A DNA stretch of 64,000 nucleotides, from the NCBI RefSeq assembly GCF_900099695.1, contig NZ_FNCY01000022.1:1-64000 (forward strand), given 5' to 3'. The stretch comes from Propionivibrio dicarboxylicus. Its GTDB lineage: Bacteria > Pseudomonadota > Gammaproteobacteria > Burkholderiales > Rhodocyclaceae. Shown piece by piece: positions 15,750 to 41,765 of the stretch; within the stretch, counting starts at the first letter, position 1; every line of letters starts with the position of its first letter. The position numbers and the translations under genes were made by a program. Under the pieces are notes generated by a model that was not told the DNA's origin, did no database searches, and saw only the letters and a list, made by a program, of their open reading frames with translations.

Positions 15750-17596
15750 GAGGCCACCTGTTTGCGAAGCGGAGTGACGTTGTCTTGTTTGACGGCATCG
15801 GCGATCTTGCCGGCGATGAAGCCCGCCGTGATCGGCGTTCCGTCGTAGTGCAGCACGCGAACCAGGCGCTTCGGATCGATTTCGCATTCATTGACGAGCA
15901 GCATGCGCAGCTGTCCGGCTTCGTTTTGCTCGACGACAAAGACCTGATCGTGGTCGTTGATGAAGTCGACGACTTCGTCGGCGAACGGGAATCCGCGCAC
16001 CCGCATGATATCGACGTGGATGTGCTGTTCTTCGAGCATGGCAAAGGCTTCGGCCATCGCCGGGCTCGTCGAGCCGTAGTAGATGGCGCCGAAACGGGTC
16101 GGCAAAGCCGCCTTCTTGACCACCGGGGCCGGCACCAGCTTGCGCGCCGTCACCAACTTGCGACGCAGGCGCTCCATGTTATAGACATAGTCGGTGCCGG
16201 TCTCGCTGTACTTGGCGTAGGCATTACGCGTCGTGCCGCGGCTGAAGAAGGCGCCCTTGGTCGGATGCGTCGCCGGAATCGTGCGGTAGGGAATGCCATC
16301 GCCATCGACGTCGAGGTAACGGCCGAAGTTCTTGCCGGCATCGAGGTCGGCGGCGCTCATCACCTTGCCGCGATCGTAGCGGCGGCTGTCGTCCCAGTCG
16401 AACGGCTTGCACAGCACCTCGTTCATGCCGATGTCAAGATCGGCCATGACGAAGACCGGCGTCTGCAAACGCTCGGCGAGATCGAAGGCTTGCGCGCCGA
16501 AGGTGAAGCACTCGTACGGATCTTCCGGGAAGAGCAGCACGTGCTTGGTGTCGCCGTGCGAAGCATAGGCACAGGCGAGCAGGTCCGACTGCTGCGTCCG
16601 CGTCGGCATGCCGGTCGAGGGACCGCCGCGCTGAACGTTGAAGACCACCGCCGGCACTTCGGCAAAATACGCGAGACCAAAGAATTCCTGCATCAGCGAG
16701 ATGCCGGGACCGGAGGTCGCGGTGAAAGCCCGCGCGCCGTTCCAGGAAGCGCCGATAACCATGCCGATCGAAGCCAGTTCGTCTTCGCATTGGACGATCG
16801 CATAACGCGCCATGCCGTTGTTCGGATCGGTGCGGAACTTGCGGCAGTAGCTGCTGAACGACTCGATGACCGAGGTCGAAGGCGTGATCGGATACCAGGC
16901 TGCCACGGTCGCGCCGCCATACACGGCGCCGAGACCGCAGGCGTCGTTACCATTGACGAAGATACGGTCGCCGACCATGTCCGAACGCTCGACGCGCAAG
17001 CCGATCGGGCAGTCGAAGGCGGCCTTGGCCTCTTCGTAACCGGTCTTGAGGGCATGCAAGTTGGAAGCGATCAGCTTGTCCTTGCCGCGATACTGCTGCG
17101 TGATCAGCCCTTCGACGGCCTTGAAATCCATGTCGAGCAGCGCTGTCAGGGCGCCGACGTACATGATGTTCTTCATCAGCATGCGCTGACGCTGATCGGC
17201 GTATTCGCGCGTGCAGATATCGGTCAGCGGCAGGCCGAGCACGACGATGTCGTCGCGGAAACGCGAACGCGGCAGCATCTTGGTCGAGTCGTAGAACAGG
17301 TAACCGCCCGGCGCGAGTTCGGCGACGTCGCGATCCCAGGTCTGCGGGTTCATCGCCACCATCATTTCGCAACCGCCGCGACGGCCGAGCCAGCCTTCGC
17401 CGGAAACGCGAACTTCATACCACGTCGGCATTCCCTGGATGTTCGACGGGAAGATGTTGCGCGGCGCCACCGGCACGCCCATGCCCATGATGGCACGCGC
17501 GAACAGCTCGTTCGCCGACGCCGAGCCGGTGCCGTTGATATTGGCGAACTTGATGACGAAGTCGTTGGTTTTTTGCACTGACTGTACGGAACTCAT
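15746..17596 (-). CDS. korA: 2-oxoacid (2-oxoglutarate):acceptor oxidoreductase, fused gamma-alpha subunit
   Basis: About 616 residues. The N-terminal third is the gamma domain (NGTGSASANELFARAIMGMG, GGCEMMVAMNP) and the rest is the alpha domain with the pyrimidine-binding fold (YPITPSTSVIE, TATSGPGISLMQEFFGLAYF). It forms the active enzyme with KorB. ATG 17596 follows GGAGG. It overlaps korC by four bases and korB by four bases, so all three should be made as one translationally coupled unit. In denitrifying relatives such enzymes feed low-potential electrons to ring reduction; no benzoyl-CoA reductase genes are in this window. Confidence 0.9.
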   Translation of the reverse strand: MSSVQSVQKTNDFVIKFANINGTGSASANELFARAIMGMGVPVAPRNIFPSNIQGMPTWYEVRVSGEGWLGRRGGCEMMVAMNPQTWDRDVAELAPGGYLFYDSTKMLPRSRFRDDIVVLGLPLTDICTREYADQRQRMLMKNIMYVGALTALLDMDFKAVEGLITQQYRGKDKLIASNLHALKTGYEEAKAAFDCPIGLRVERSDMVGDRIFVNGNDACGLGAVYGGATVAAWYPITPSTSVIESFSSYCRKFRTDPNNGMARYAIVQCEDELASIGMVIGASWNGARAFTATSGPGISLMQEFFGLAYFAEVPAVVFNVQRGGPSTGMPTRTQQSDLLACAYASHGDTKHVLLFPEDPYECFTFGAQAFDLAERLQTPVFVMADLDIGMNEVLCKPFDWDDSRRYDRGKVMSAADLDAGKNFGRYLDVDGDGIPYRTIPATHPTKGAFFSRGTTRNAYAKYSETGTDYVYNMERLRRKLVTARKLVPAPVVKKAALPTRFGAIYYGSTSPAMAEAFAMLEEQHIHVDIMRVRGFPFADEVVDFINDHDQVFVVEQNEAGQLRMLLVNECEIDPKRLVRVLHYDGTPITAGFIAGKIADAVKQDNVTPLRKQVAS

Positions 17597-19380
17597 GTTC
17601 TCGGAACCTCCATGCCGGCCTGGGCGCTGTGTAACGTAAACTTCTGCATATCCCAGGCGCCCGTCGGGCAACGTTCGGCACACATGCCGCAATGCAGACA
17701 GATGTTTTCATCCTTGACCATGACCCGCCCGGTCTTGAGGATGTCGGAGACGAGCAAGGCCTGTTCGGTATTCTTCGCCGGCGCCTTCAGGCGTCCGCGC
17801 AGATCCTCTTCCTCGCCGTTACCGGTGAAAGAGATGCACTCGGTCGGGCAGATGTCGGTACAGGCATCGCACTCGATACAGACCTTCGGCGAGAACACCG
17901 TTTCGACGTCGCAGTTAAGGCAGCGCTCCGCTTCGGAACACGCCATGAACGGATCGAAACCCAGTTCGAGTTCGAGCTTGATGTCGGTCAGCGTCTTCTC
18001 GAGCGACTTCATCGGGACCTTCTTGCGCCCCTCTTCCGACACCTGGTTGTCGTAGCTCCACTCGTGGATGCCCATCTTCTGGCTGACCAGGTTATACAAG
18101 GGCGCAGGCCGCTCATCGACGCGCAGTCCCTTGCAGAATAGGTCGATCGAAATCGCCGCTGCATGACCGTGCGCAACCGCCGTGATGATGTTTTTCGGAC
18201 CGAAAGCCGAATCGCCGCCGAAGAAGACCTTCGGCACGGTCGACTGGAAGGTTTCCTTGTCGAGCACCGGCAGGCCGTACTTGTTGAACTCGAGGCCGAT
18301 GTCCTTCTCGATCCAGGGGAAGGCGTTCTCCTGACCGATGGCGACCAGCACCTCGTCGCACTCGAGGAAGACGTCGGGTTCGCCCGACGGCACCAGGCTA
18401 CGACGGCCCTGGCTGTCATACTCGGCGCGCACGACCTCGAACTTGACGCCGGTCAGTTTGCCATTGTCATGGACAAACTCTTTCGGCACGTGCATGTTGA
18501 TGATCGGGATCTGCTCGTGGATCGCCTCTTCCTTTTCCCAGGGCGAGGCCTTCATTTCCTCGAACGAGCTGCGCACGACGACCTTGACGTCGGTGCCGCC
18601 GAGACGGCGGGCCGAACGGCAGCAGTCCATCGCCGTGTTGCCGCCGCCGAGCACGATCACCCGCGGCGAAACGGTCTTGACGTGGCCGAAGGCGACGTTG
18701 GCAAGCCACTCGATACCGATGTGGATATGGCTGGCGGCTTCCTTGCGTCCCGGAATGTCGGCGTCGCGACCGCGCGGCGCGCCGGTACCGACAAACACGG
18801 CATCCCACTGCGCATCGTCGACCAGCGACTTGAGGCTCTTGACCCAGTGATTGAGGCGCAGATTGACGCCGAGATCGAGGATGTACTGGCATTCCTCGTC
18901 GATGACGCTATCCGGCAGGCGGAACTTCGGGATCTGCGTGCGGACCATGCCACCCGGCGCCTTGCCGGAATCGAAGATGGTCACGTCATAGCCTTGCACG
19001 GCCAGGTCGCGGGCCACCGTCAGCGAGGCCGGGCCGGCACCGATACAGGCAACGCGCTTGCCGTTCTTCTTCGGCACTTTCGGCATGTACTCGGCGATGT
19101 CGTCCTTGAGGTCGGCGGCAACGCGCTTCAGGCGGCAGATCGCCACCGGATCCTTGTCGATACGACCGCGGCGGCACGCCGGTTCGCAGGGACGGTCGCA
19201 AACGCGCCCGAGGATGCCCGGGAAAACGTTCGACCGCCAGTTGATCATGTAGGCATCGGAATAACGCCCCCCGGCGATCAGCCGGATGTATTCCGGAACC
19301 GGGGTATGGGCCGGACACGCCCATTGGCAATCCACCACCTTGTGATAATAGTCGTGCCCGCCTGTATTCGTCGGTTTCAC
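17593..19380 (-). CDS. korC: FAD-dependent NAD(P) oxidoreductase subunit with iron-sulfur clusters (KorC-like)
   Basis: About 595 residues resembling the glutamate-synthase small-subunit family. The N-terminal Cys cluster is in DCQWACPAHTPVPEYI and RVCDRPCEPACRRG, the FAD motif in ACIGAGPASLTVARDLA, the NAD(P) motif in VLGGGNTAMDCCRSARR, and two C-terminal 4Fe-4S motifs in CIECDACTDICP and CLHCGMCAERCP. It would pass electrons from KorAB to NADP, or the reverse. I choose GTG 19380, eleven bases after TGGAG, because the family-like sequence begins there; an ATG at 19437 is possible. It is first in the kor operon. Confidence 0.85.
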   Translation of the reverse strand: MKPTNTGGHDYYHKVVDCQWACPAHTPVPEYIRLIAGGRYSDAYMINWRSNVFPGILGRVCDRPCEPACRRGRIDKDPVAICRLKRVAADLKDDIAEYMPKVPKKNGKRVACIGAGPASLTVARDLAVQGYDVTIFDSGKAPGGMVRTQIPKFRLPDSVIDEECQYILDLGVNLRLNHWVKSLKSLVDDAQWDAVFVGTGAPRGRDADIPGRKEAASHIHIGIEWLANVAFGHVKTVSPRVIVLGGGNTAMDCCRSARRLGGTDVKVVVRSSFEEMKASPWEKEEAIHEQIPIINMHVPKEFVHDNGKLTGVKFEVVRAEYDSQGRRSLVPSGEPDVFLECDEVLVAIGQENAFPWIEKDIGLEFNKYGLPVLDKETFQSTVPKVFFGGDSAFGPKNIITAVAHGHAAAISIDLFCKGLRVDERPAPLYNLVSQKMGIHEWSYDNQVSEEGRKKVPMKSLEKTLTDIKLELELGFDPFMACSEAERCLNCDVETVFSPKVCIECDACTDICPTECISFTGNGEEEDLRGRLKAPAKNTEQALLVSDILKTGRVMVKDENICLHCGMCAERCPTGAWDMQKFTLHSAQAGMEVPRT

Positions 19381-20690: not shown

Positions 20691-21566
20691 TCAGCGCCGG
20701 GCAGGTGCCTGCAATTCGCTCGCTGCGTAATCGATGAAGGCGCTCACGGTTTGCAACTCCTTGGCCGGCGCCGAGCAGAACAACCAGGTCCGGCGCACCA
20801 CCGGCGCACCATCCGGCCAGAACAGGGGCTGAACGCACAAACCATCGCCCTCGGGCAAACCGATGCGCGGCAGCATGGTCCAGCCAAGTCCATGCAGCAC
20901 CATCTGGCGGGCAATGTCCATCGTATTGACCTCCATCGTCGTCTTCGGCGGCGAGTCGAAGTTGAGCCGCCACCATTCATCGAGCATCTTCTTCAGCGAG
21001 GTATCCGTGCCATAACGGATATGCGGACGCGTCAGCAACTCGTCGGGACCGATCGCGTCGCTCGAAACCAAGGACACCGGCTCTTCGGTCAGCAACACCT
21101 TCTCGCCGGACCACTCGTGCTCGCCGCGCACAATGCCAATCGAAATTTCCTGCCGCTCGAGCATCTCGACGATCTGGAAACTCAGCCCGGTTTTCAGCGA
21201 GATCTCGACCTTCGGATAGCGGCCGAGAAAGCCCTTAAACAGGCCCGGCAGGACATAGTGTGCGAAGATCCCGGACGAGCCCAGGCGCAACGGCCCTTCG
21301 ACCTTGCTCTCCATGTTCTTGACCTGGTCCTTGACGATCGCCAGCCGTACCAGCATCTCTTCCGCATATTTCAGCAGATGCTCGCCCTGCGGCGTCAGCA
21401 CGACGCCGGTCGGCACCCGCGTGAGAAGCCGCGCGCCCAACTCCGCTTCGATGCGCTTCAGGCGATAGGTCAGCGCCGGCTGCGAGATGAACAGACGTGC
21501 CGAGGCCTTGGTCACGTTCTTCTCTTCCGCAATCACCTTGAGAATTCGCCAGTCTTTTTCGTCCAC
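20691..21566 (-). CDS. LysR family transcriptional regulator, divergent from aconitase
   Basis: 291-residue LysR protein of the CysB/Cbl-like length class, starting MDEKDWRILKVIAEEKNVTKAS, with helix-turn-helix ASARLFISQPALTYRLKRIE and a ligand domain ending in LGWTMLPRIGLPEGD. It is divergent from the exported aconitase gene with a 227-base gap that holds a LysR-type box. By position it is the likely regulator of the aconitase/ModA-family operon, perhaps responding to a tricarboxylate; this is inference. Confidence 0.9.
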   Translation of the reverse strand: MDEKDWRILKVIAEEKNVTKASARLFISQPALTYRLKRIEAELGARLLTRVPTGVVLTPQGEHLLKYAEEMLVRLAIVKDQVKNMESKVEGPLRLGSSGIFAHYVLPGLFKGFLGRYPKVEISLKTGLSFQIVEMLERQEISIGIVRGEHEWSGEKVLLTEEPVSLVSSDAIGPDELLTRPHIRYGTDTSLKKMLDEWWRLNFDSPPKTTMEVNTMDIARQMVLHGLGWTMLPRIGLPEGDGLCVQPLFWPDGAPVVRRTWLFCSAPAKELQTVSAFIDYAASELQAPARR

Positions 21567-21621: not shown

Positions 21622-21793
21622 CGCCTCTAGAAAAAAACAATATTTTATTTATTTTCGCAAATCCGAATAATAGCCTCGATTGGTCAAAGAACAACAGCGG
21701 TCGCGGCCTCGGAGGCAAACGCCTCAAGACAGGCGCCGAGGGACAGAGACCACCATCGGAACTTCGTGGATTCGATTTTCAGGAGAGACAAAC

Positions 21794-24526
21794 ATGCTCA
21801 ATCGTCGCAGTTTCTGTATCCGTAGCGCCGCCACCGTCGCTGCTGCCGTATCGATCAACGGTGTTGCCGAAGCCGCCCCGGGCGCTACCCAGCGCAACGC
21901 GGCTGCGGGTGGATCGGCTGCATCGCCCGGACTCGTCATCGACGAAGCCACCGCGCGCTCGACCATCCTCGACGCTTACCGCAAGCACGTTGCCGAACGC
22001 GCTGCGCAGGGTTTGCCGCCGCTGTCATTGAATCCGGTACAAACCGCGGCGGTTGCCGTGCTGCTCAAGAACCCGCCGAAGGGCGAGGAAGCTTTCCTGC
22101 TCGATCTCCTCAGCACCCGCGTCCCCCCCGGCGTTGACGCCGCCGCCAAGGTCAAGGCCGATTTCCTCGCTACCATCGCCACCGGCAAGGACAAGTCGCC
22201 CGTCATCACGCGTCAGAAAGCCGTCGAACTGCTCGGCACGATGCAGGGCGGCTACAACGTCAAGACGCTGATCGCGCTGCTCGGCGACCCGACGCTCGGG
22301 ACCGCCGCCGCGGACTGCCTGAAAAAGACGCTGTTGATCTTCGGCGCGATCAAGGACGTCAAGGCGCTCGCCGACAAAGGCAATGCCAACGCCAAGGGCG
22401 TGCTCAAATCCTGGGCCGAAGGCGAATGGTTCAGCGCGCGCGCCGACGTGCCCAAGAGCATCAAGCTGACGGTCTTCAAGGTCGGCGGCGAAACCAACAC
22501 CGGGGACCTATCGCCCGATCCGGACGCCAACACGCGTACCGACATTCCGCTGCACGCGCAGGCGATCCTCAAGTTCCCGCGTGCCGGCCTCACGCCCGAC
22601 GAACCGGGCAAGCGCGGTCCGCTCAAGCAATTCGAGGCGATGAAGGCCAAGGGCAATCCGCTCGTCTATGTCGGCGATGTCGTCGGACCGGGCTCGTCGC
22701 GCAAGTCGGCGACCAACTCGCTGCTGTGGATGACCGGTCAGGATATTCCCTTCGTCCCGAACAAACGCTTCGGCGGCTTCGTCTTCGCCGGCAAGATCGC
22801 ACCGATCTTCTACAACACGATGCAGGATTCCGGCGCGCTGCCGATCGAAATGGACGTCAGCAAGCTTGAAATGGGCGACGTCATCGAACTCCTGCCCTTC
22901 GACGGCAAAGTGTTGAAGAACGGCGAAGTCGTCGCCAGCTTCAAGCTCAAGACCGATGTGCTGCTCGACAGCGTCCGCGCTGGCGGCCGCATTCCGCTGA
23001 TCATCGGCCGCAATCTCACCGCCGAAGCGCGCAAGATGCTCGGCATGTCGGCGACGGCGATGTTCCGCGCGCCGAAGCAACCGGCCGATACCGGCAAGGG
23101 CTACACGCTCGCCCAGAAGATCGTCGGCCGCGCCTGTGGCCTGCCGGCCGGCAAGGGCGTGCGTCCCGGCACCTATTGCGAACCGGTGATGGACACCATC
23201 GGCTCGCAGGACACCATCGGCCCGATGACGCGCGACGAGCAGAACGACCTCGCCTGTCTGAGCTTCTCGGCCGATCTGGTGCTGCAGACCTTCTGCCACA
23301 CGGCCGCCTATCCGAAGCCCGAAGACGTCAAGATGTACGCCGAACTGCCGCAGTACATCTACTCGCGCGGCGGCGTCGCCGTCCGTCCGGGTGACGGCGT
23401 GCTGCACTCCTGGCTCAACCGCATGGCGATGCCCGACTCGGTCGGCACCGGCGGCGATTCGCACACGCGCTTCCCGATCGGCGTCTATTTCCCGGCCGGC
23501 TCCGGCCTCTGCGCCCTCGCCTCGGCGACCGGCGTGATGCCGCTCGACATGCCCGAATCGGTGCTCGTCCGCTTCAAGGGCGAGATGCAGGCGGGCGTCA
23601 CCTTGCGCGACCTCGTCAATGCCATTCCGTACTACGCTTTCCGGCAAGGGCTGCTGACCGTCGACAAAAAAGGCAAGAAGAACATCTTCTCGGGCCGCAT
23701 CCTCGAAATCGAGGGGCTGCCGAACCTGACCGTCGAACAGGCCTTCGAGATTTCCGACGCCTCGGCCGAGCGTTCCGCCGAAGCCTGTACCGTGCGACTC
23801 GGCAAGGAACCGATCGTCGAGTACATGCAGTCGAACGTCGCGCTGCTTAAATGGATGGTCGCCAACGGCTACCAGGACCGCAACGCCCTGCTCCGCCGCA
23901 TCGCTAAGATGGAAGCCTGGCTCAAGAATCCGCAGATCCAGGAACCCGACGCCAACGCCGAATACGCGGCCGTCATCGAGATCAACCTGGCCGAGGTCAC
24001 CGAGCCGCTGCTCGCCTGCCCGAACGACCCGGATGACATCAAGCCCTTGTCGGCGGTCGCCGGCGCCAAGGTCGACGAAGGTTTCATCGGCTCCTGCCAG
24101 ACCAACATCGGCCACTTCCGCGCCGCGGCGCACATCCTCAAGGGCAAGGAACTGCCGACGCGCCTGTGGGTGGTACCGCCGACGAAGATGGATGCCGACA
24201 CGCTCAACCGCGAAGGCTACTACGCAACGCTCGGCGAAGCCGGCGCGCGCATGGAAGTCCCCGGCTGCTCGCTCTGTTTTGGCAACCAGGCACGCGCCCG
24301 CAAGGGAGCCACCGTCGTCTCGACCTCGACGCGCAACTTCCCCAACCGCATGGGTACCGGCACCAATGTGTATCTGGCGTCAGCCGAAGTCACCGCAGTC
24401 GCCTCGCTGCTTGGCAAGATCCCGACCAAGGCCGAATACCTTGAGCATATGAAGGTCGTCCAGCAGAAAGCGGCGGACATCTACCGCTACATGAATTTCC
24501 ACCAAATGGCCGAATTCAAGGCTTAG
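21794..24526 (+). CDS. acnB: Aconitase B with an apparent Tat signal peptide (predicted periplasmic)
   Basis: 910-residue AcnB-type aconitate hydratase, which interconverts citrate, cis-aconitate and isocitrate. The core aligns by eye with E. coli AcnB from YRKHVAERAA onward. The 4Fe-4S ligands are present: Cys768 (GSCQTNIGHF), Cys825 and Cys828 (PGCSLCFGNQAR). Unusually, about 57 residues precede the normal start: a twin-arginine motif NRRSFC, an alanine-rich hydrophobic stretch and an AEA-A cleavage-like site, then a Gly/Ala linker. ATG 21794 is well placed after AGGAGA. The stop codon TAG is built from the left end of an inserted element. Without it the stop would be TAA, 12 bases before the ModA-family gene. 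Confidence 0.93.
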   Translation: MLNRRSFCIRSAATVAAAVSINGVAEAAPGATQRNAAAGGSAASPGLVIDEATARSTILDAYRKHVAERAAQGLPPLSLNPVQTAAVAVLLKNPPKGEEAFLLDLLSTRVPPGVDAAAKVKADFLATIATGKDKSPVITRQKAVELLGTMQGGYNVKTLIALLGDPTLGTAAADCLKKTLLIFGAIKDVKALADKGNANAKGVLKSWAEGEWFSARADVPKSIKLTVFKVGGETNTGDLSPDPDANTRTDIPLHAQAILKFPRAGLTPDEPGKRGPLKQFEAMKAKGNPLVYVGDVVGPGSSRKSATNSLLWMTGQDIPFVPNKRFGGFVFAGKIAPIFYNTMQDSGALPIEMDVSKLEMGDVIELLPFDGKVLKNGEVVASFKLKTDVLLDSVRAGGRIPLIIGRNLTAEARKMLGMSATAMFRAPKQPADTGKGYTLAQKIVGRACGLPAGKGVRPGTYCEPVMDTIGSQDTIGPMTRDEQNDLACLSFSADLVLQTFCHTAAYPKPEDVKMYAELPQYIYSRGGVAVRPGDGVLHSWLNRMAMPDSVGTGGDSHTRFPIGVYFPAGSGLCALASATGVMPLDMPESVLVRFKGEMQAGVTLRDLVNAIPYYAFRQGLLTVDKKGKKNIFSGRILEIEGLPNLTVEQAFEISDASAERSAEACTVRLGKEPIVEYMQSNVALLKWMVANGYQDRNALLRRIAKMEAWLKNPQIQEPDANAEYAAVIEINLAEVTEPLLACPNDPDDIKPLSAVAGAKVDEGFIGSCQTNIGHFRAAAHILKGKELPTRLWVVPPTKMDADTLNREGYYATLGEAGARMEVPGCSLCFGNQARARKGATVVSTSTRNFPNRMGTGTNVYLASAEVTAVASLLGKIPTKAEYLEHMKVVQQKAADIYRYMNFHQMAEFKA

Positions 24527-24794
24527 GGTGTGTTGTCAATGAAGCGCTGGTTGCGCAAGGGTCTGGCGAGCCGCAGCGCTAGGCGGCGGAAGCGCCGCAT
24601 GGCCATCCATGCAAGCTTCTGCCAACAACGCGATGCGCCTCGCCAGACCCTTGCCCTTCGGGTTGCCCCTGCGCCGGTCGTCTGCGGCGTTGCGCCTCTT
24701 GCGAAGGGAACAACCCTTCGCTGCGACGCGCGCCTTGCAACCACTCCAGCGCAGAGTGCAACGCAATCCAGCGATTAATTGAAAACACACCCTA
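24524..24794. mobile_element. MITE-like non-autonomous element inserted at the acnB stop codon
   Basis: 271 bases bounded by perfect 11-bp terminal inverted repeats (TAGGGTGTGTT and its complement) that extend imperfectly to about 27 bp, ending CGCTGG. The outermost TA at both ends fits a TA target duplication, as for IS630/Tc1-type transposases. An internal perfect 16-bp inverted repeat lies at 24555-24570 and 24639-24654, so the transcript can fold strongly. No transposase is encoded. Removing the element and one TA restores a TAA stop and an acnB-to-next-gene spacing of 12 bases with an intact CAGGGAG ribosome site. Confidence 0.8.
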
Positions 24795-24807
24795 ACAGGG
24801 AGACACC

Positions 24808-25614
24808 ATGAACAAACTTTTGTCCAGACTGGCACTGACACTCGCCTCCGGCCTGCTCGCCGCAAGCGCGCTGGCGGCAGAGATCACCGTCATGAGTTCG
24901 GGCGGTTTCTATTCGGCGATGGAAGAACTCGCGCCGGTTTTTGAAAAGGCAAGCGGCCACAAGGTCATCCTCGTCTCCGGATCGTCGATGGGCTCCTCAC
25001 CCACCGCGATTCCAGCCCGCATGCAGCGTGGCGAACCGGCCGACCTGATCATGCTGGCGAGCACCGAACTCGACAAACTGATCGGCCAGGGATTGGCCGT
25101 CAAGGGCAGCCGCGTCGATCTCGTGCATTCGAAGATTGGCATGGTCGTCCGCGCCGGCGCACCGAAGCCCGACATCAGCACCAAGGCCGCTTTCGAGAAA
25201 GTCCTGCTCGACGCCAAGTCGATCGGCTACTCGGCAAGCGCCAGTGGTGTGCATCTCGTCAAGGAGGTCTTTCCCCGCCTCGGCATCGCCGAATACCACG
25301 CCGTCATGGGCAAGGCCAAGGAAGTGGTGAAGGACCGTGTCGCCACCTGGGTCGCCCGCGGCGACCTGGAAATCGGCTTCCAGCAAGTGAGTGAGTTGCT
25401 GCCAATCCCCGGCGTCGACTTCGTCGGCCCGATCCCGGCGCCGTATCAGAAGGTCACGATCTTCTCGGCCGGCGTCGCCAAAGGCTCGAAGGAACCCGAA
25501 GCCGGCCAGGCACTGATCAAGTTCCTGACCTCGAAGGATGCGTATCCGATCATCGAAAAACAGGGGCTGGAACCCGCCGCCGTCGCCGAAGCCGGCGAGA
25601 AGGCGAAGAAGTAG
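24808..25614 (+). CDS. ModA-family periplasmic protein, candidate aconitate isomerase
   Basis: 268 residues with a Sec signal peptide (cleavage near ASALA) and a ModA-like substrate-binding fold (ITVMSSGGFYSAMEELAPVFE, MQRGEPADLIMLAS, DLEIGFQQVSELL). No molybdate permease or ATPase genes are nearby. From memory, the Pseudomonas aconitate isomerase (cis/trans-aconitate) is a periplasmic ModA-family protein of similar length. Being paired with an exported aconitase makes that function attractive, but I cannot align the two here. The alternative is a solitary binding protein. The ribosome site is CAGGGAG, and the gene was probably co-transcribed with acnB before the element inserted. Confidence 0.8.
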   Translation: MNKLLSRLALTLASGLLAASALAAEITVMSSGGFYSAMEELAPVFEKASGHKVILVSGSSMGSSPTAIPARMQRGEPADLIMLASTELDKLIGQGLAVKGSRVDLVHSKIGMVVRAGAPKPDISTKAAFEKVLLDAKSIGYSASASGVHLVKEVFPRLGIAEYHAVMGKAKEVVKDRVATWVARGDLEIGFQQVSELLPIPGVDFVGPIPAPYQKVTIFSAGVAKGSKEPEAGQALIKFLTSKDAYPIIEKQGLEPAAVAEAGEKAKK

Positions 25615-25678: not shown

Positions 25679-25797
25679 CCGTCAATCAAGACCGTCGCAA
25701 TAATCCGTAAAATATTTCACGTTTTATACAGATAAAACAATACAACCAACAGATATGATCAAGCGGCGCATTACCGAATATGCCGCGTAACCACAAG

Positions 25798-25815
25798 ACT
25801 GTCAGAACTGACAGT
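25798..25815. promoter_or_regulatory. Perfect palindrome upstream of the peptide cluster
   Basis: ACTGTCAG-AA-CTGACAGT, followed by a T-rich run, in the AT-rich 288-base gap before hlyD. A second inverted repeat (GCGGC at 25763 and GCCGC at 25782) is nearby. This is either an operator or an attenuator-like hairpin. No regulator gene is in the cluster. Confidence 0.45.
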
Positions 25816-25902
25816 TTCTATTTTTGACGAAAAACTTATCATGTCCGCGCACAACAAACTATACAACTCGTACAACACGAGCAACGCACGCACAGCAGTC
25901 TC

Positions 25903-27273
25903 ATGCCGACCAACACATCGCTCCGCAACAGCCGGTTTTCTGCCGAGAAGGCCTCCGCACAGGACGACCCATGGCGCAGCGCCCCCGTGCTGGGCGCGCC
26001 GAAACCATCGCAAACGGTCATCCGCGGCACGATAGACGCACTCTTCCGTCATGAAGCGATCGCCACGCGCCAGCAAAGCTGGCTGGGCGAGACGCTCATC
26101 GCGCGACCGCTGGCCACGGACGCGCTCACCATCGCCGCTCTATCGATCGCCACACTCGTCGTACTCTTCCTCGTCTTCGGCGAATACACCCGCAAGGAAC
26201 GGGTAGCCGGAGAAGTCCAGACGTCGCTTGGCGTCGCCAAAGTTGCCCCGCCGGTCAATGGCGTGGTCACCCGCCGCATGGTCAGCGACGGCCAATGCGT
26301 CAACGCCGGCGATCCGCTCTTCGTCATCTCGGCGGACCGCAGCACCGCCAAAGGCAACACGCAGGAAGCCATCCTCGCCCGAATCGCCGAACAAAAAAAC
26401 GCGCTGGCGGCCGAATACCGGAAACAAAAGGACGTTTTCGCCGAAGAAGCCGCCGAACTGACGCGAAAGATCGGCCAGACGAAACAACAACTCGAAGAAA
26501 TCCGACAAGCGCTGCAACTGCAGGAACGCCGGGCCGGCCTGGCAAGCGACATCGTCGAGCAATACCGACTGCTGGTGCAGAAAAAATACTTTTCGATCAC
26601 CGCGCAATACGAGAAAGAACGCGAACTGCTCGACGCCCAGCGCCTGCTGAGCGATCTGCGCCGACAGGAAACCGGCCTTCAGCGCGACATCGGCACCTTG
26701 CAGAGCGACCTCCGCAACCATCCGCTGCGCTCGGAAAACAAGCTCTCCGCCATGGAACGGCAAATACAGGCGCTCGACCAATCCGGCGCCGATGCCGAAG
26801 GCAAACGCGAAATCGTCATCCCGGCGCCGCAAACCGGTTGCGTCACCGCCATCCTGGCGCAACCGGGATACACGGTCGTTCCCGACAAGCCGATGGCGGC
26901 CCTGTTGCCGCGGGGAGCGAAACTCGAAGCGCATCTTTACGCGCCCAGTCGTGCCATCGGTTTCATTCGCGAAGGCACCCCGGTGCTCTTGCGTTACGAG
27001 GCCTACCCCTACCAGAAATTCGGCCAGTACGGCGGCAAGGTACTCGAAGTCGCGCGGGCGGCGATCCCCTCCACCGAACTTCCTTTCCAGATGACGAGCG
27101 AAGAAGCGATGTACCGGATTCGCATCGACCTGGACGCGCCGGCGGTCGTCGCCTACGGAAAGAGCGAACCGCTGCAGGCCGGCATGCGCCTCGAAGCGGA
27201 CATCCTGATTGACACCCGCAAGCTCTACGAGTGGGTGTTCGAACCGATCTACAGCCTCAGCGGGAAAGTCTGA
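25903..27273 (+). CDS. HlyD-family membrane fusion (adaptor) protein of a peptide exporter
   Basis: 456 residues. A cytoplasmic N-terminus is followed by one transmembrane helix (about residues 75-95, ALSIATLVVLFLVFG), a split lipoyl/barrel-sandwich domain starting at GEVQTSLGVAKVAPPVNGVV, a long coiled coil (about 150-290, rich in Gln/Glu/Lys heptads) and a C-terminal beta-barrel. It would bridge the C39-peptidase ABC exporter at 31989 to an outer-membrane channel (no TolC gene is present in the window). The ribosome site before ATG 25903 is poor. The stop overlaps the following gene (TGATG). This is the first gene of the cluster. Confidence 0.88.
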   Translation: MPTNTSLRNSRFSAEKASAQDDPWRSAPVLGAPKPSQTVIRGTIDALFRHEAIATRQQSWLGETLIARPLATDALTIAALSIATLVVLFLVFGEYTRKERVAGEVQTSLGVAKVAPPVNGVVTRRMVSDGQCVNAGDPLFVISADRSTAKGNTQEAILARIAEQKNALAAEYRKQKDVFAEEAAELTRKIGQTKQQLEEIRQALQLQERRAGLASDIVEQYRLLVQKKYFSITAQYEKERELLDAQRLLSDLRRQETGLQRDIGTLQSDLRNHPLRSENKLSAMERQIQALDQSGADAEGKREIVIPAPQTGCVTAILAQPGYTVVPDKPMAALLPRGAKLEAHLYAPSRAIGFIREGTPVLLRYEAYPYQKFGQYGGKVLEVARAAIPSTELPFQMTSEEAMYRIRIDLDAPAVVAYGKSEPLQAGMRLEADILIDTRKLYEWVFEPIYSLSGKV

Positions 27274-27905
27274 TGGACTATCGAATCCGCCTCGAACCGC
27301 TCGACCAACGCCACGCCGACGACCTCGCCGCAGCGGGCAGCGACGCCTCGATCTGGCTGTATCTGCCCGGCAAGCCCTTCCGCCAGCGACACGACGCGCA
27401 ACACTGGATCGCCGCCGCGCACGAAGATCAACGCCGCGGCAAGCGCATCCCGTTCGCCATCGTCGACGCCGCCACCGGACAGGCGATCGGATCGACCAGC
27501 TTCAGTCATATGCGCAAGGAGCACCGCAGCACGATGATTGGGTGGTCGTGGCTGGCGCCGAGCCACCGGGGCACGAGCGTCAATGCCGAAAGCAAATACC
27601 TGCTGCTCGAACACGCCTTCGAAACCATGGGTGCGATGCGCGTCGACCTGCGGATCGACGAACGCAATATCCGCTCGCAACGTGCCGCTGAGCGCCTTGG
27701 CGCCGTCCGGGAAGGCGTTCTGCGCAGGCACATGATCGAGAACGGCATCGTCCGCAATACCGTGTATTACAGCTTCATCGATTCGGAATGGCCCGACACC
27801 AAGACCCACATCGAGGAAATCATCCAGCATAAACGCGACACCGCCGCGCGGGAGATGCCAAGCCATCGCCACGAAGCGGCCCCCGGCATTTTGGAGGTTG
27901 CCTGA
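27273..27905 (+). CDS. GNAT family N-acetyltransferase
   Basis: About 210 residues of the RimJ/RimL-like GNAT class. Visible features are the beta-strand region PFAIVDAATGQAIGSTSF, the acetyl-CoA-binding area around GWSWLAPSHRGTSVNAESK and the motif RIDERNIRSQRAAERLGAVREG. The ATG overlaps the hlyD stop, so it is translationally coupled, and the precursor gene follows after 86 bases. That position suggests it may acetylate the peptide, a Lys or N-terminus, or act in self-protection. Both are inference, since GNAT genes are also common passengers. Confidence 0.85.
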   Translation: MDYRIRLEPLDQRHADDLAAAGSDASIWLYLPGKPFRQRHDAQHWIAAAHEDQRRGKRIPFAIVDAATGQAIGSTSFSHMRKEHRSTMIGWSWLAPSHRGTSVNAESKYLLLEHAFETMGAMRVDLRIDERNIRSQRAAERLGAVREGVLRRHMIENGIVRNTVYYSFIDSEWPDTKTHIEEIIQHKRDTAAREMPSHRHEAAPGILEVA

Positions 27906-27991
27906 TCATCAGCCTTCAACCGACAGCCAGCCTGATCACCCTGGCCCGTCAATCCGCAGCATCCAACTCAATCTCAATGAAAGGAAAGAAG

Positions 27992-28453
27992 ATGGACATC
28001 GAAAGAGAAGAGGAACTTGAAACCAAAACGACGACGATCGCCGGCATCCGCGTTCTCCTCGACGAGGAACTCCGGTGGATCGCCGGCGGCGGGGATGGCG
28101 ATGGAGACGGTGATGGTGATGGTGATGGTGATGGGGATGGCGATGGCGATGGAGACGAAGGCGCTGATGCCACTTGCAGCGACTGCGGACCGGCAACATC
28201 CGCCGCTGTCAGCAGTATCGCATCGTATGGCGAAAACAACGCCCCCTCTGCGGAGGCGCTCTCCAACAGCACTGATCCATCGATCTCGTGTACATCAGTA
28301 AGCCCAACGCTCTCCAGCATCAATGACATTGGGAGTATTTGCGCAATGGTCTCAACCACAACCAACCCTGCAGTTGCGACTGTTTGCGCTGCAATCGCCA
28401 CGGTTGCGGTCGCAAATAACGTTGCCTGCACTATCAACGGCCAGACGCCTTAA
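27992..28453 (+). CDS. Double-glycine leader peptide precursor with Gly-Asp tract and six Cys
   Basis: 153-residue putative secreted peptide. The leader (residues 1-33) ends LLDEELRWIAGG and fits the double-glycine consensus: Leu at -12, Glu at -8, Leu at -7, Ile at -4, Gly-Gly at -2/-1. Cleavage by the C39 peptidase after Gly33 would release about 120 residues: eleven Gly-Asp dipeptides (34-55), a Ser/Thr-rich middle, and a hydrophobic Ala/Val-rich end. Six Cys stand at 62, 65, 100, 117, 132 and 146. ATG 27992 is chosen over ATG 27977 because AAGGAAAG lies before it. Bacteriocin or modified-peptide activity is inferred from neighbours; no known bacteriocin was recognised. Confidence 0.82.
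   Translation: MDIEREEELETKTTTIAGIRVLLDEELRWIAGGGDGDGDGDGDGDGDGDGDGDGDEGADATCSDCGPATSAAVSSIASYGENNAPSAEALSNSTDPSISCTSVSPTLSSINDIGSICAMVSTTTNPAVATVCAAIATVAVANNVACTINGQTP
28091..28156 (+). repeat. Hexanucleotide tandem repeat encoding eleven Gly-Asp units
   Basis: Eleven copies of the six-base unit GGN-GAY directly after the predicted leader cleavage site. Third positions vary (GGG, GGC, GGA and GGT; GAT and GAC), so selection on the protein is likely, but the tract could still change length by slippage. The frame is kept by any whole-unit change. Confidence 0.9.
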
Positions 28454-28488
28454 TGTCAAATTAGACGGGACGACCGAGGCCCATGATC

Positions 28489-29412
28489 ATGCGACTACTC
28501 AACCACAAATTTGTTCTTGGCTGTTTGATTTATGGGTTCTCGGTCAATGTATCGAGTCAAGAAAGCGATCAGATAAACACTCCGCTGTGCCTAAAAAATG
28601 ATTCAGAAAATGTCACGATCACCTTGCTTGGCGTTAGCCACGCACTTCCCGTCGGAGACCGACAACTCTTTCTTGAAAACCAAGTCAATCGATCAACGCA
28701 CCTCTTTCTCGAAAATCGTTTGCCTTTTCAGAAAGATGCAAATGGGCAGCCAACGCTCTCAAGGAAAGGCCTCCCGACCCTTAGATTGGACAGCTTCGTC
28801 GACACAAACGATATTCCAACATTGTCCAACATCCTAGGAGTCGCTTTATCACCCGATCGGCATTTCCCTCTCATTGACACCATCAACATATTTTCTGCGA
28901 TCTTTTCAAAGGCGTTGCGCCAGACCGACGCCTCAAAGAACGAAAAACGAGGCTTGCCAAAGCATGTCGCCAACGCGAGCACCGTTGAGGCAGCCGCCTA
29001 TCTATATGCAATTAGCAAGAACGTTCCTACCTACGACCTGGAGGAAATTCCAGACACGCTGGGCGCATCGGATCTTGACACGATAAAGTCCGAAGTGAGC
29101 ACAGCGCTTCGCTGTTCATCAGATGCTGTTTGCATAGCCAACTTCAAAAAAAACAACGCCCTTCTCTGGCGGTCCATGAGCGAAAGCACGACCACATATG
29201 ACGAGGTGTACCTCCTTGTGATGGATATTCCAACTTCGGAAAGAGCCACATTGGCCAGGAGAAACGAGCGTATGTTCAACAATATCCTACCGGTTCTATC
29301 GAATGGATCACGTGCCTTAGTTATTGTCGGCGCTGCGCACATTAGCGGCCCGACCGGATTGGCCTCCAAACTCGAAACTGCCAATTTCACCAAAGTGAAA
29401 TGCAGCTTTTGA
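28489..29412 (+). CDS. TraB/GumN-like exported protein, first copy
   Basis: About 307 residues with an N-terminal signal or anchor (MRLLNHKFVLGCLIYGFSV). Two GxxH motifs, GVSHALP near the N-terminus and GAAHISGPTGL near the C-terminus, together with the spacing fit the TraB/GumN (Tiki-like) family of putative metalloproteases. ATG 28489 is nine bases from GAGG; ATG 28483 is possible. It directly follows the precursor gene and is paralogous to the next gene. Possible roles are processing or inactivating the peptide, or immunity. The codon use looks more AT-rich than the flanking housekeeping genes. Confidence 0.72.
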   Translation: MRLLNHKFVLGCLIYGFSVNVSSQESDQINTPLCLKNDSENVTITLLGVSHALPVGDRQLFLENQVNRSTHLFLENRLPFQKDANGQPTLSRKGLPTLRLDSFVDTNDIPTLSNILGVALSPDRHFPLIDTINIFSAIFSKALRQTDASKNEKRGLPKHVANASTVEAAAYLYAISKNVPTYDLEEIPDTLGASDLDTIKSEVSTALRCSSDAVCIANFKKNNALLWRSMSESTTTYDEVYLLVMDIPTSERATLARRNERMFNNILPVLSNGSRALVIVGAAHISGPTGLASKLETANFTKVKCSF

Positions 29413-29492
29413 AAACAAGTCTTTCTCCGAACCACACATTGCGATCATCAAGACGTCATTCCAACACGGAACCTGGAACCAAGGACGACCAC

Positions 29493-30434
29493 ATGCGAAG
29501 AATCCGTTACATCATACTGCTTGCTGGCCTTCTTCCCTGCGTCACATCGCATGCCGAAGAACTATTGGCCACCGCCGCGGTTCCGCCGCAAGTCTGTTAT
29601 CGGGATTTCATCCACGACCGCAAAGTTACACTTCAGGGCGTCATTCACACCACCTCCGTAGACCTTCACGAACCCGTCGTTGAAAAGCTCTTCAATCAGG
29701 TCTCGGTCGTCATGTTCGAGAATACGAGCCTATTCCCGGACGATGGCATTTTCAAGAAATTGGAAACCTTTCCGGATGAGTACAGGAAAGTCGTCCGACT
29801 CAACCGTGTCGTCGACGAAAAGCATATTCCGAGGCTCTCCAAGCTATTCAATATTGCCTTGACCCGGGACAGCCCGGTATTCATTTCAACAATTTCCAAC
29901 TTCGTTGCTTCGATCATCGTCAAGAGACTGCAAAACGACGGACTTGTTGCGCAATCCATTACCAATCCATGGAAAAATTTGATTGGCGCATCCAACGTGG
30001 AAGCGGTGGCCTATGCGTACGCGCGACAACATCAAATTCCCGTCCGCGATCTGGAATCGGTCGGAGAGAGTTCCGGCTTGCCCGAGATTTATGAAATCAA
30101 GGACCAGGTCGACAGGACGATGGAATGCATCGACGACGCGAAGTGCCTGCAAGACTGGAATGCACGCCGACTTTCAATTGCAGACCATATTTCGTCCCCG
30201 ATCAAATCATATGACGACACTTATCGGGTCGTAATGAATTCGCACGACACGCTGCGTATCACGTTGGCACCGAGGAATCAACGCATGTTCAAGAAGATGA
30301 TGTCTTTTCTCCAGGACGGCGCGCACGCCTTGGTAATCGTCGGCGCGGCACACATCGGCGGCCCCAGCGGTCTTGGCGCAAAACTCGCCTACGAGAAATT
30401 CATAAGAACACCCTGCGACAAATTGCTTCTGTAA
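29493..30434 (+). CDS. TraB/GumN-like exported protein, second copy
   Basis: About 313 residues, clearly related to the preceding gene: GVIHTTS replaces GVSHALP, NVEAVAYAYA parallels TVEAAAYLYA, and LVIVGAAHIGGPSGLGAKL parallels the C-terminal motif. It has a cleavable signal (MRRIRYIILLAGLLPCVTSHA). The two GxxH motifs and an intervening Glu (MFENTS) could bind metal. AAGGA precedes ATG 29493. The tandem pair probably arose by duplication with divergence; different roles are possible but unproven. Confidence 0.72.
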   Translation: MRRIRYIILLAGLLPCVTSHAEELLATAAVPPQVCYRDFIHDRKVTLQGVIHTTSVDLHEPVVEKLFNQVSVVMFENTSLFPDDGIFKKLETFPDEYRKVVRLNRVVDEKHIPRLSKLFNIALTRDSPVFISTISNFVASIIVKRLQNDGLVAQSITNPWKNLIGASNVEAVAYAYARQHQIPVRDLESVGESSGLPEIYEIKDQVDRTMECIDDAKCLQDWNARRLSIADHISSPIKSYDDTYRVVMNSHDTLRITLAPRNQRMFKKMMSFLQDGAHALVIVGAAHIGGPSGLGAKLAYEKFIRTPCDKLLL

Positions 30435-30447
30435 CTCAGGACACGAT

Positions 30448-31218
30448 ATGGAACCCGCAACCGGATTTCAACAGACCGCCTGCAAAATGCCCACCCGACT
30501 GCGAGCCACGACAACCGGCACCGGCATCAACGCATTCACCCCGCGAATGCTCGATCCGCAACTATCGGCGTTTGTCGCCTTATACCTGCTGTGCCTAAGC
30601 AAGCGATTCTGGCTCGGCAACCTGCACGGCATCCATTTCTGGCTTGCCGATGTCATCGGTTTCGTCATCATTCCGATTGCGCTCGTTCGTGCATTTTCGC
30701 TACCGCTCAAATTACCGTTTGGCATAGTCTCCGGTAAGCAGCGCAAGAGCGAAAAACACACAACAGGCGAACTCGTTTTCTACTCAATACTCTCGACGAC
30801 CGTCCTCTACGCCGCATTAAATCTGGGCGCCGTTTTCGGAAAAATCGCTGTCGCTGTTTTTCCAAATCTCTTGCCTCCCACCTACAGTTATTTGGCCAGC
30901 GCCCCAGGCAAGGAATTCCCCACCGCGGTCTTTGTGTTCTATTTCGCGATCACGCCAGCCGTGGTCGAGGAATATTTCTTCCGGGGTCTCGCACGGCAGC
31001 AGATCCAGCGCGTCTTTGGCTCGAATTTCAGCTACGTCCTCATTTCCTCGCTACTGTTTGCAAGCATCCATTGGGGCGGCGGACTTTTTCCCGTCGTCCA
31101 GACGGCCGTCTTTGGCATTGCTGCAGCGCTGATTTATCTGCATGTCAAGAGCCTGCTACCGCTGATGGTCGGACATTTCTTCGTCGACGTGTCGATCGCC
31201 CTGTCCGCTCTGCCGTGA
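30448..31218 (+). CDS. CPBP family intramembrane glutamic endopeptidase
   Basis: 256-residue multipass membrane protein with the CAAX-protease/bacteriocin-processing signature: Glu174-Glu175 and Arg in VVEEYFFRG, His in FASIHWGGG and a C-terminal His-x3-Asp in GHFFVDV. Such proteins mature peptides or give self-immunity in many bacteriocin loci. It starts 13 bases after the second TraB-like gene, so it is co-transcribed. The first 35 residues are polar and may be overlong; an ATG at residue 34 is an alternative start. Confidence 0.85.
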   Translation: MEPATGFQQTACKMPTRLRATTTGTGINAFTPRMLDPQLSAFVALYLLCLSKRFWLGNLHGIHFWLADVIGFVIIPIALVRAFSLPLKLPFGIVSGKQRKSEKHTTGELVFYSILSTTVLYAALNLGAVFGKIAVAVFPNLLPPTYSYLASAPGKEFPTAVFVFYFAITPAVVEEYFFRGLARQQIQRVFGSNFSYVLISSLLFASIHWGGGLFPVVQTAVFGIAAALIYLHVKSLLPLMVGHFFVDVSIALSALP

Positions 31219-31282
31219 AAATTGCCTCGACGCTATTTGACGCGCTTTTTTGACACCGGCATTCATTCGGAAAGGAGAAGCC

Positions 31283-31588
31283 ATGAACCAATCGACGCCG
31301 GCGGAGAATGCCCCTGAAAACAGATATGAGACCTTGATAATGCAAGTGGAAGCACTTCGAAACAGGAAGCGCGCACTCCCCCCATTCATTTTTTTCACAA
31401 CGTGCTTCCTGAGCGTCCTCTGGGGATGGATGATTTATCGTCAAACATCGAATGTTCTCTACTGTCTGTTGCTTAGCGGCTCTGTAACCATCGCCGCTTA
31501 TGCGCAAGGCGAAGCCGCGCGCTATCGCAAGCAGTCGGAAGACATTCTGGCCAGGCTCGACGTCCGGTTCGATGATTCGGACGAATAG
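31283..31588 (+). CDS. Small two-helix membrane protein
   Basis: 101 residues with two adjacent hydrophobic segments (PFIFFTTCFLSVLWGWMIY and NVLYCLLLSGSVTIAAYA) and a charged C-terminal tail. No family was recognised. ATG 31283 follows AAGGAG. Its size, topology and place between the CPBP protease and the exporter fit an immunity or accessory protein. It shares overall layout with the next gene: soluble N-terminus, two helices, basic/acidic tail. Confidence 0.7.
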   Translation: MNQSTPAENAPENRYETLIMQVEALRNRKRALPPFIFFTTCFLSVLWGWMIYRQTSNVLYCLLLSGSVTIAAYAQGEAARYRKQSEDILARLDVRFDDSDE

Positions 31589-31638
31589 CGCAATCAATCA
31601 CAACACAACATCACACAACTCGAATAGGGGAGAACGTC

Positions 31639-31992
31639 ATGACAGTGGAAACCAATTTTCAAGCAACATCGCAACCCCGGCTGAACGACATAATCGCCGA
31701 CACTGTGCGCCTCACGACAAGGGTTCAACGCGCCAGGAATTTTCGCGGCTGGTATCTGCTACTCGTCTTCACGATAACCGGCTCGGGCATGATCTATTTG
31801 ATCAATTCGACGCCTGGATCTCATGAGAATGTTTTCGCCATGCAGTTCACACTAGCATCCGCGTTGATCGCGATTTTTGACTTTTATCTATCGCGCCTGG
31901 AAATCGGACTGGCACTGGCAACGCTTGAGCGTCGCTTGCTAGAGAATTTCTTCGAGCGTCGCGAGGATAGCGACACGCAGTCGCCGGCATGA
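31639..31992 (+). CDS. Small two-helix membrane protein
   Basis: 117 residues with two membrane segments (YLLLVFTITGSGMIYLI and FTLASALIAIFDFYL) and an amphipathic C-terminus (RLLENFFERRED). No family was recognised. A GGGGAG ribosome site precedes ATG 31639, and the stop overlaps the exporter start by four bases (ATGA), so its synthesis is coupled to the ABC exporter. It is a candidate immunity protein or exporter accessory. Confidence 0.72.
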   Translation: MTVETNFQATSQPRLNDIIADTVRLTTRVQRARNFRGWYLLLVFTITGSGMIYLINSTPGSHENVFAMQFTLASALIAIFDFYLSRLEIGLALATLERRLLENFFERREDSDTQSPA

Positions 31993-37242: not shown

Positions 37243-37292
37243 TACTCATCCCGCTTTAATGCCCTCTTCCCACGCAACATCGCGCTAACGAA

Positions 37293-41762: not shown

Positions 41763-41765
41763 GGA

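Follow-up and report, generated by a model that had tools for sequence, protein, structure and literature searches.

A predicted Tat-exported aconitase and a PacI-type candidate aconitate isomerase encoded together with citrate-use genes in Propionivibrio dicarboxylicus

We analyzed a stretch of 64,000 nucleotides from Propionivibrio dicarboxylicus (assembly GCF_900099695.1, contig NZ_FNCY01000022.1, positions 1 to 64,000; referred to below as the window), in which an acnB gene with an additional N-terminal sequence is followed by a gene for a ModA-fold protein. The host uses citrate and shares its GTDB genus with Propionivibrio soli. Aconitase normally resides in the cytoplasm, and the sensitivity of its cluster to oxygen and iron is textbook knowledge. 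The AcnB encoded here carries a predicted signal for twin-arginine translocation (Tat), and the ModA-fold protein is a candidate periplasmic aconitate isomerase of the PacI type. The pair and the features next to it are:

20691-21566, minus strand: divergent LysR-type regulator (by eye), which adjoins the pair also in loci L080 (62%) and L084 (64%)
21781-21787, plus strand: ribosome-binding site AGGAGAG of acnB, 6 bases 5' of the ATG
21794-24526, plus strand: acnB paralogue with N-terminal extension, 910 residues (TIGR00117; Pfam Aconitase_B_N, Aconitase_2_N, Aconitase)
21794-21874, plus strand: predicted Tat signal, residues 1-27, with NRRSFC motif, uncharged stretch and AEA site (motif/hydropathy rule and alignment)
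24526-24792, no strand assigned: element of about 267 bp between acnB and the ModA-like gene, with 20-bp terminal inverted repeats (3 mismatches)
24797-24802, plus strand: ribosome-binding site AGGGAG of the ModA-like gene
24808-25614, plus strand: PacI-like gene (candidate periplasmic aconitate isomerase), ModA fold, 268 residues (SBP_bac_11, 7.9e-41)

In a profile search the window AcnB scored 1373.9 bits against TIGR00117 (cut-off 1287.2), and the model match starts at residue 58, which leaves 57 additional N-terminal residues beginning with MLNRRSFCIRSAATVAAAVSINGVAEA/AP (here and below the slash follows the AEA or corresponding site). The protein shares with ordinary AcnB (E. coli structure 1L5J) homology over residues 58-909, the three cluster cysteines (C768, C825 and C828) and the substrate residues that were checked, and differs from it by the 57-residue Tat-like N-terminus, by forming a clade of its own and by 16 shared column changes. 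The initial annotation had described a complete AcnB with all cluster cysteines and about 57 extra residues behind a good ribosome site, and these statements were borne out.

An extension of this kind could also stem from a mis-called start of an ordinary AcnB or from an assembly artefact. Chance upstream frames running into acnB do exist: among the matches listed, alignments to query residues 8-24 were obtained in eight genomes. All eight were inspected singly and each acnB has its own ordinary start, and ordinary starts were also seen in G935, G1007, G972, G969, G952, G864 and G923. In the reading frame of the window gene, by contrast, no ATG, GTG or TTG is present between codons 1 and 74; the rare codon ATC occurs in frame at positions 9, 21, 49 and 58. 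The same arrangement was found in three further assemblies, and the window genome has a separate, ordinary acnB. With no alternative start, a separate acnB and agreement of the other assemblies, this explanation was rejected; its probability is practically negligible.

The window genome (4.53 Mb in 44 contigs) contains six aconitase-family matches at five places. The separate, untagged acnB that the initial annotation had asked about lies on contig C22, and its product is 68% identical to the tagged AcnB (P0001); the three others are, by eye, two AcnA-like proteins and one LeuC-like protein. Untagged AcnB, 68-69% identical to P0001, is present in all four genomes with a tagged copy. Because all four hold both forms, the window AcnB is a second copy besides the housekeeping AcnB, and not the housekeeping enzyme with a wrongly called start.

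The tag is common to proteins 96%, 83% and 74% identical to the window AcnB in three other genomes. Alignment of the four readable tagged AcnB, from three genera, revealed that the elements MLxRRSFxIxSxATxAA...AEA are kept and that the linker residues past AEA diverge:

Window genome (G000): MLNRRSFCIRSAATVAAA..VAEA/AP
Same-genus genome (G026): MLNRRSFCIRSAATVAAA..AAEA/AT
Locus L080: MLSRRSFCINSVATVAAT..QAEA/KE
Formivibrio citricus (L084): MLNRRSFIIRSAATTAAA..QAEA/KE

For the prediction of export we used a crude rule of our own, consisting of a twin arginine followed by hydrophobic residues and an uncharged stretch of at least 13. The rule was passed by all four readable tagged N-termini, by the positive control, a Tat-type MfrA-like flavoprotein of Sulfurospirillum (L087), and by none of 37 untagged AcnB, whose sequences begin at the ordinary start or close to it and which thus make a weak negative control. 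RRSF was not seen by eye in the upstream frames of these 37. TatC scored over the cut-off in 4/4 tagged genomes. The tagged AcnB is predicted to be exported by the Tat pathway, and the twin-arginine N-terminus with AEA site noticed in the initial annotation proved to be conserved wherever a tag could be read.

Instead, the extension may be no working export signal, and the protein an AcnB isozyme that stays in the cytoplasm and has an unusual N-terminus. The extension is rich in alanine, short motifs may come by chance (three of the 117 open reading frames (ORFs) of the window pass the Tat rule in total), and two Formivibrio copies are interrupted by contig ends before their tags. A chance origin is opposed by the retention of RRSF and AEA over three genera with changing neighbouring residues, by the export-type N-terminus (by eye) of the adjoining ModA-like product, and by a second aconitase subfamily in Formivibrio with the motif SRRSFLG on an extension of its own. 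We consider a cytoplasmic isozyme quite improbable.

This second aconitase is a 700-residue aconitate hydratase of Formivibrio citricus (L157, 6895-8997, minus strand; NF005558, 914.2 bits, cut-off 612), encoded on contig C42, 239 bp downstream of a tagged-type acnB and on the same strand. The match to NF005558 starts at residue 54, and the first 53 residues contain SRRSFLG and an uncharged stretch of 20 (...TLSRRSFLGTTGAAMVGAAVSMSSVEALA/AG) and pass the same Tat rule. This signal is nearer to the textbook Tat consensus than the AcnB tag. A relative occurs in 26 plasmid records; in the ten listed, alignment starts at residue 45-56 and does not take in the extension. Two unrelated N-terminal signals on adjoining aconitase subfamilies would be hard to credit to chance. 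From the C42 locus it also appears that an exported aconitase can occur without an isomerase-like neighbour.

The distribution of the tag was surveyed in four overlapping genome sets. Among 59 genomes (the window's and 58 relatives), in which a few matches are shortened at contig ends, the tag was found only in G000 and G026, which belong to the same genus and whose proteins are 96% identical. In 395 genomes of the family, the own one included, AcnB was detected at an E value of 1e-200 or better in 344; a match covering residue 1 was present, among the matches listed, in three of the 395 (G000, G026 and G671, the last taken as the genome of L080 from identical coordinates). The family matches were sorted by score, and the tagged ones stood far above the rest. 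AcnB was found at 1e-250 in 131 of 300 genomes of the order, with only G000 seen tagged, and in 43 genomes of the Formivibrio citricus family tagged AcnB was seen only in that species; in both of these sets the longer alignments were inspected for starts of their own. G794 (L178) and the second acnB copy in G004 were likewise rejected for having an ordinary start; in G1007 an RR lies upstream of the ordinary start by chance. Partial matches with unread N-termini occur in G009 (a 564-residue frame), G015, G024, G025 and G036. Plasmid-borne tagged AcnB was not found among 20 listed of 48 records, in which matches begin at residue 53 or later. The initial annotation had suggested a survey for Tat-tagged AcnB beside ModA-family genes; three family genomes and Formivibrio citricus have the tag, and each contains such a pair.

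In Formivibrio the copy on C34 is complete with its tag, and two further copies lie on contigs that end in the linker (C42 and C5). These two contigs (G612; L157 and L158) break off at the same base within the tagged-type acnB. Their sequences agree throughout the next 2 kb and at 494 of 500 bases in the half-kilobase that follows, and then differ. Since the sequences differ further on, Formivibrio citricus probably has three tagged-type acnB copies. The patchy spread of tagged AcnB over two families suggests transfer.

In a tree, five tagged-type AcnB, one of them with unreadable tag, form one clade (100/100) against the 37 untagged proteins. From a list of E. coli AcnB substrate and cluster positions, mapped by hand onto the window protein, 13 positions were checked (R248, S301, S302, R303, Q472, D473, T474, S556, C768, C825, C828, R847 and R852), and all 13 are kept in 5/5 tagged-type AcnB. 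Between G000 and G026 the ratio of nonsynonymous to synonymous substitution rates (dN/dS, Nei-Gojobori) is 0.045 for the mature part of the tagged AcnB and 0.036 for the untagged copies; the tagged AcnB is under purifying selection. Of 414 columns invariant in untagged AcnB, 90 are changed in one or more of the tagged-type sequences; in 16 of these columns all five show the same change. Two of these 16 changes affect the residue that adjoins a cluster cysteine on its C-terminal side (M to Q at 769 and M to F at 829); that the loss of these methionines is an adaptation is a guess. As a separate observation, the same-genus genome G009 contains, not far from its normal acnB, a shortened second acnB of 564 residues (C1:905719-907335; L039), 72% identical to P0001 over its length.

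The ModA-like gene follows five of the six tagged-type acnB genes for which the next gene could be read (G000, G026, L080, L084 and L085), and all four tagged genomes have at least one tagged-type acnB followed by it, together with TatC, a true ModA and citrate lyase. The element of about 267 bp between the two genes in the window is flanked on both sides by TA and absent from G026, where the gap is 13 bp; it looks like a small non-coding transposable element.

The initial annotation had called the downstream product a secreted ModA-fold protein without molybdate transport genes. The N-terminus is of the Sec type by eye, and neither modB nor modC was seen among 30 window ORFs chosen for Pfam analysis, in agreement with this description. 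The protein has the fold of ModA and weak sequence similarity to it, scoring 46.0 bits against TIGR01256 with a cut-off of 62.5; its counterparts in the other four genomes scored 31.9-47.3 bits, whereas each of the five genomes tested has a different, true ModA at 227-261 bits. In a tree of 68 rows, 14 ModA are split from 54 relatives of the window protein (P0002) at 100/100, the bootstrap being not fully settled, so that a grouping with molybdate binders was not observed. R71, E76, S142, S146, Q192, Q193 and E196 are conserved in 36-38 of the 38 closest members, and the 12 ModA compared have other residues at these positions. With the score below the cut-off, the separate clade, the differing residues and a true ModA elsewhere in the genomes, identity with ModA was rejected.

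Relatives of P0002 were found in three of 274 genomes of the class at 1e-30 and in 38 of 297 genomes of the family at 1e-20, the window's included in both counts; most of them are less than 45% identical. A search of the genome collection yielded 57 loci, and 12 of these combine a ModA-type protein with a ModB-like permease, the 12 loci with the ModA-type protein being the same as the 12 with the permease. One of them, L117, has a P0002 relative and true modAB together. Matches in Pseudomonas (L134-L136) are weak and partial (E value 1e-4). Plasmid relatives were found in 135 records, the best at 57.5%. Six plasmid loci were opened of 40 listed, and in five of them a transporter of the major facilitator superfamily (MFS) is encoded just upstream; the sixth has an antiporter and a TctC-like gene. 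Three of the five plasmid MFS proteins were tested, and all three are TcuC (700-762 bits, cut-off 445), and the fourth upstream transporter tested at plasmid relatives is an antiporter. The plasmid locus L183 of A. baumannii consists of LysR, TcuC, the P0002 relative, LysR, tcuA and tcuB. Its P0002 relative is 56% identical to the window protein, the adjoining TcuC scored 700.1 bits against NF011656, and in the tree the L183 protein branches inside the clade of the tag-adjacent ModA-like proteins. The window protein is thereby a close homologue of a protein encoded with TcuC and TcuAB.

A tcuC-pacI arrangement of this kind is said to have been described for Acinetobacter baylyi by Baugh and colleagues in 2024, with PacI as a periplasmic aconitate isomerase and TcuC as importer of cis-aconitate. 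A periplasmic ModA-family aconitate isomerase of Pseudomonas was reportedly described by Yuhara in 2015. The window protein resembles PacI as an exported ModA-fold protein and through its similarity to the A. baumannii plasmid gene in the same position; from this homology it is a candidate PacI-type aconitate isomerase. The window differs from the Acinetobacter system in having no adjoining TcuC; where Acinetobacter has the cis-aconitate importer, the window has the tagged aconitase and a citrate importer instead. In the accessible part of PMC12338516 the work of Baugh and colleagues is cited for a link between tricarballylate and both cis- and trans-aconitate, and A. baumannii is said to share the gene order.

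Alternatively, the ModA-like protein may only bind a tricarboxylate, in transport or two-component sensing, and be no enzyme. Its fold is that of substrate-binding proteins, the relatives in L113, L185 and L187 have genes for ATP-binding cassette (ABC) transporters of other kinds a few genes away at most, and the relative in L117 adjoins true modAB. An ABC permease was, however, not found as a direct neighbour in the window, L037, L080, L084 or L085, and no permease or ATPase directly adjoins the gene in these loci or in the six plasmid loci. The residues kept in nearly all close members differ from those of ModA, the TcuC-linked relative matches PacI as reported, and two signal-less relatives from the same taxonomic order stand among LigJ/LigK/LigI-like genes, where an allylic isomerase step is known. 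Binding alone appears very unlikely for these reasons.

The signal-less relatives (L078, 6717-8505, and L079; 41% and 37%; absence of a signal peptide judged by eye) are encoded where the 4-oxalomesaconate (OMA) isomerase LigU would be expected, the names of their Lig neighbours being given partly by eye. In the accessible part of PMC6888825 LigU performs the allylic isomerase step of the Lig pathway. These relatives are possibly a cytoplasmic ModA-fold allylic isomerase.

The window contains further genes that bear on citrate use:

14685-17692, upstream of the pair: 2-oxoacid:ferredoxin oxidoreductase genes
37293-37898, minus strand: small membrane protein, UPF0126-like (by eye)
38004-42245, minus strand: citG, citX, citF, citE and citD (citF PF04223, citE PF03328; citG, citX and citD by eye and position)
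42502-43533, minus strand: citC, citrate lyase ligase (PF08218, 3.6e-69)
43617-44978, minus strand: CitM citrate:proton symporter (TIGR00784, 516.6 bits, cut-off 259.7)
45176-46669, minus strand: outer-membrane porin (PF13609, 3.1e-42)
46735-48892, plus strand: two-component system (regulator by eye; kinase with 2CSK_N)

The TIGR00784 match and the Pfam matches of citF, citE and citC confirm that CitM and citrate lyase are encoded in the same window as the pair, as the initial annotation had assumed; counterparts of the citrate lyase genes occur in L037 and L189. In G026 the genes form one island. Its first part consists of the two-component system, porin, CitM, citC, citD, citE, citF, citX, citG and the small membrane gene, and its second part, on the other strand, of the ModA-like gene and tagged AcnB, followed by the LysR gene. 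The stop codons of the small membrane gene and the ModA-like gene are 76 bp apart in G026 and 11,678 bp apart in the window, and the wide spacing in the window is due to an insertion on its side or a loss on the other.

The 11.6-kb stretch that is absent from G026 (window positions about 25682-37292) holds genes for a peptidase-C39 ABC exporter (31989-34103) and a radical-SAM protein (34046-35614), as well as a short ORF (27977-28453) in which Gly-Asp is repeated in a run; it is possibly a modified-peptide cluster.

CitF is present in all four tagged genomes and also in Propionivibrio soli and Sulfurospirillum diekertiae. It was found in 19 of the 395 family genomes, and the three tagged genomes of that set all have it; the association of CitF and tag has a p value of about 1e-4 when genomes are counted and of 0.004 when genera are, kinship not being corrected for.

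We propose that the pair is a periplasmic tricarboxylate-converting module that leads from trans-aconitate to citrate, which is then used through CitM and citrate lyase; we assign this reading a probability of about 0.67. The ModA-fold protein, exported by the Sec pathway, would act as a PacI-type isomerase and convert trans-aconitate into cis-aconitate in the periplasm. The tagged AcnB would fold and receive its [4Fe-4S] cluster in the cytoplasm before Tat export, and would then hydrate cis-aconitate to citrate in the periplasm. Citrate would be imported by CitM and split by citrate lyase. The aconitase equilibrium favours citrate, and import and cleavage of citrate would pull it further. The 2-oxoacid:ferredoxin oxidoreductase encoded upstream would suit the resulting pyruvate. 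Compared with the Acinetobacter scheme, the aconitase would have crossed the membrane, and we propose that a citrate importer is then enough. With the second Formivibrio aconitase of Tat type taken into account, the probability of the module rose from about 0.65 to the value given, that of the wider picture described below rose slightly as well, and that of a cytoplasmic isozyme fell slightly.

Several observations weigh against the proposed module. The PacI activity with which the window protein is compared is a reported one. The Tat rule is crude and has a weak negative control, the two other window ORFs that pass it include CitE, and the tags of two Formivibrio copies (C42 and C5) are unreadable, because the contigs end inside the linker. 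The tagged-type acnB on Formivibrio contig C42 (L157) has no ModA-like gene after it. In L080 and in Formivibrio L084 the pair stands apart from citrate lyase, whose genes are elsewhere in the genome, and CitF of these genomes is only 47-50% identical to the window's. Propionivibrio soli has a ModA-like gene beside citrate lyase in a genome without tagged AcnB, from which it follows that the isomerase does not require an exported aconitase; L081 and L082, of which only the loci were read, appear to be similar. In L081-L083 the ModA-like gene and citrate lyase are accompanied by TctCBA and a PrpF-family gene, and the locus has no AcnB.

The exported AcnB might also work on another pool or in the reverse direction, for example from isocitrate or cis-aconitate to citrate without an isomerase, or in providing extracellular aconitate for a partner enzyme. 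Aconitase is reversible, and in Formivibrio L157 the acnB is followed by the second exported-type aconitase and by no isomerase-like gene. In Sulfurospirillum a ModA-like gene lies near a Tat-tagged fumarate-reductase-like flavoprotein, which hints at a periplasmic aconitate pool that can feed a reductase in these bacteria. In the genus of the window, however, CitM and citrate lyase belong to the same island as the unit, a tricarballylate enzyme was not seen among the 30 window ORFs scanned, and an isomerase-like gene stands behind all but one of the tagged-type acnB read. We regard another pool or direction as rather unlikely.

In a wider form, the proposed module would mean that a reaction of the citric acid cycle has been relocated outside the cytoplasm. 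Tat-exported aconitases, both of the AcnB lineage and of the second subfamily in Formivibrio, would together with a PacI-type isomerase feed a citrate importer and citrate lyase, and the AcnB lineage would have adaptations of its own, the two lost methionines among them, and would have spread between Rhodocyclaceae and Formivibrio along with the isomerase and the LysR regulator. This wider picture seems reasonably probable to us.

trans-Aconitate is an abundant plant acid and inhibits aconitase. With the proposed module, trans- and cis-aconitate would become usable through a citrate importer and trans-aconitate would be kept out of the cytoplasm; this would explain how some bacteria use trans-aconitate without importing it. 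The aconitases would also be natural objects for studying how a labile [4Fe-4S] enzyme matures, is exported and survives outside the cytoplasm. Formivibrio citricus DSM 6150, a cultured and named strain, carries tagged AcnB, so the proposal is directly testable.

The initial annotation had called this a new arrangement. In the open-access literature, which leaves most subscription journals outside, we found, among the titles and abstract openings listed, neither an aconitase with a dedicated export signal nor an exported aconitase paired with a PacI-type protein, and the phrase 'periplasmic aconitase' did not occur in the open-access texts searched. As far as this literature goes, the dedicated signal would be new, whereas the occurrence of aconitase outside the cytoplasm as such does not, since signal-less aconitases have already been reported there. 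In the accessible part of PMC6679007, an A. baumannii AcnB without signal peptide is given as periplasmic, after an earlier report, and the part of PMC6497762 available to us places a mycobacterial aconitase in cell-wall and membrane fractions. These proteomic findings resemble the proposed arrangement in having aconitase outside the cytoplasm, but, as far as the available text of both sources goes, they concern the ordinary enzyme with no signal peptide or with predicted non-classical export, and not a second copy with a dedicated signal. TarA of Bacillus likewise brings trans-aconitate into central metabolism; in the portion of PMC11495376 at hand, TarA/TbrA is an intracellular PrpF-family enzyme behind a trans-aconitate importer, whereas the window protein has another fold and would act outside the cytoplasm. 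Each part of the arrangement belongs to a known family, and what would be new is the dedicated export signal and the pairing with a PacI-type protein.

PacI-like genes were also seen in other settings. In Propionivibrio soli (L083, 3339-8765) the PrpF-family gene, TctCBA and the PacI-like gene lie in one run, which brings two unrelated isomerase candidates together. In two Sulfurospirillum loci (L087, 4173-8801, and L088, 2690-8732) the PacI-like gene comes after a Tat-tagged fumarate-reductase-like flavoprotein with iron-sulfur and CCG subunits, with one gene in between in L088; these loci are possibly a periplasmic aconitate-reducing arrangement. In a metagenome-assembled genome of the Bacillota (L089, 4957-8708), genes for a PIG-L protein (GalB-like), a DASS transporter and an RraA-like aldolase are followed by a PacI-like gene (64%).

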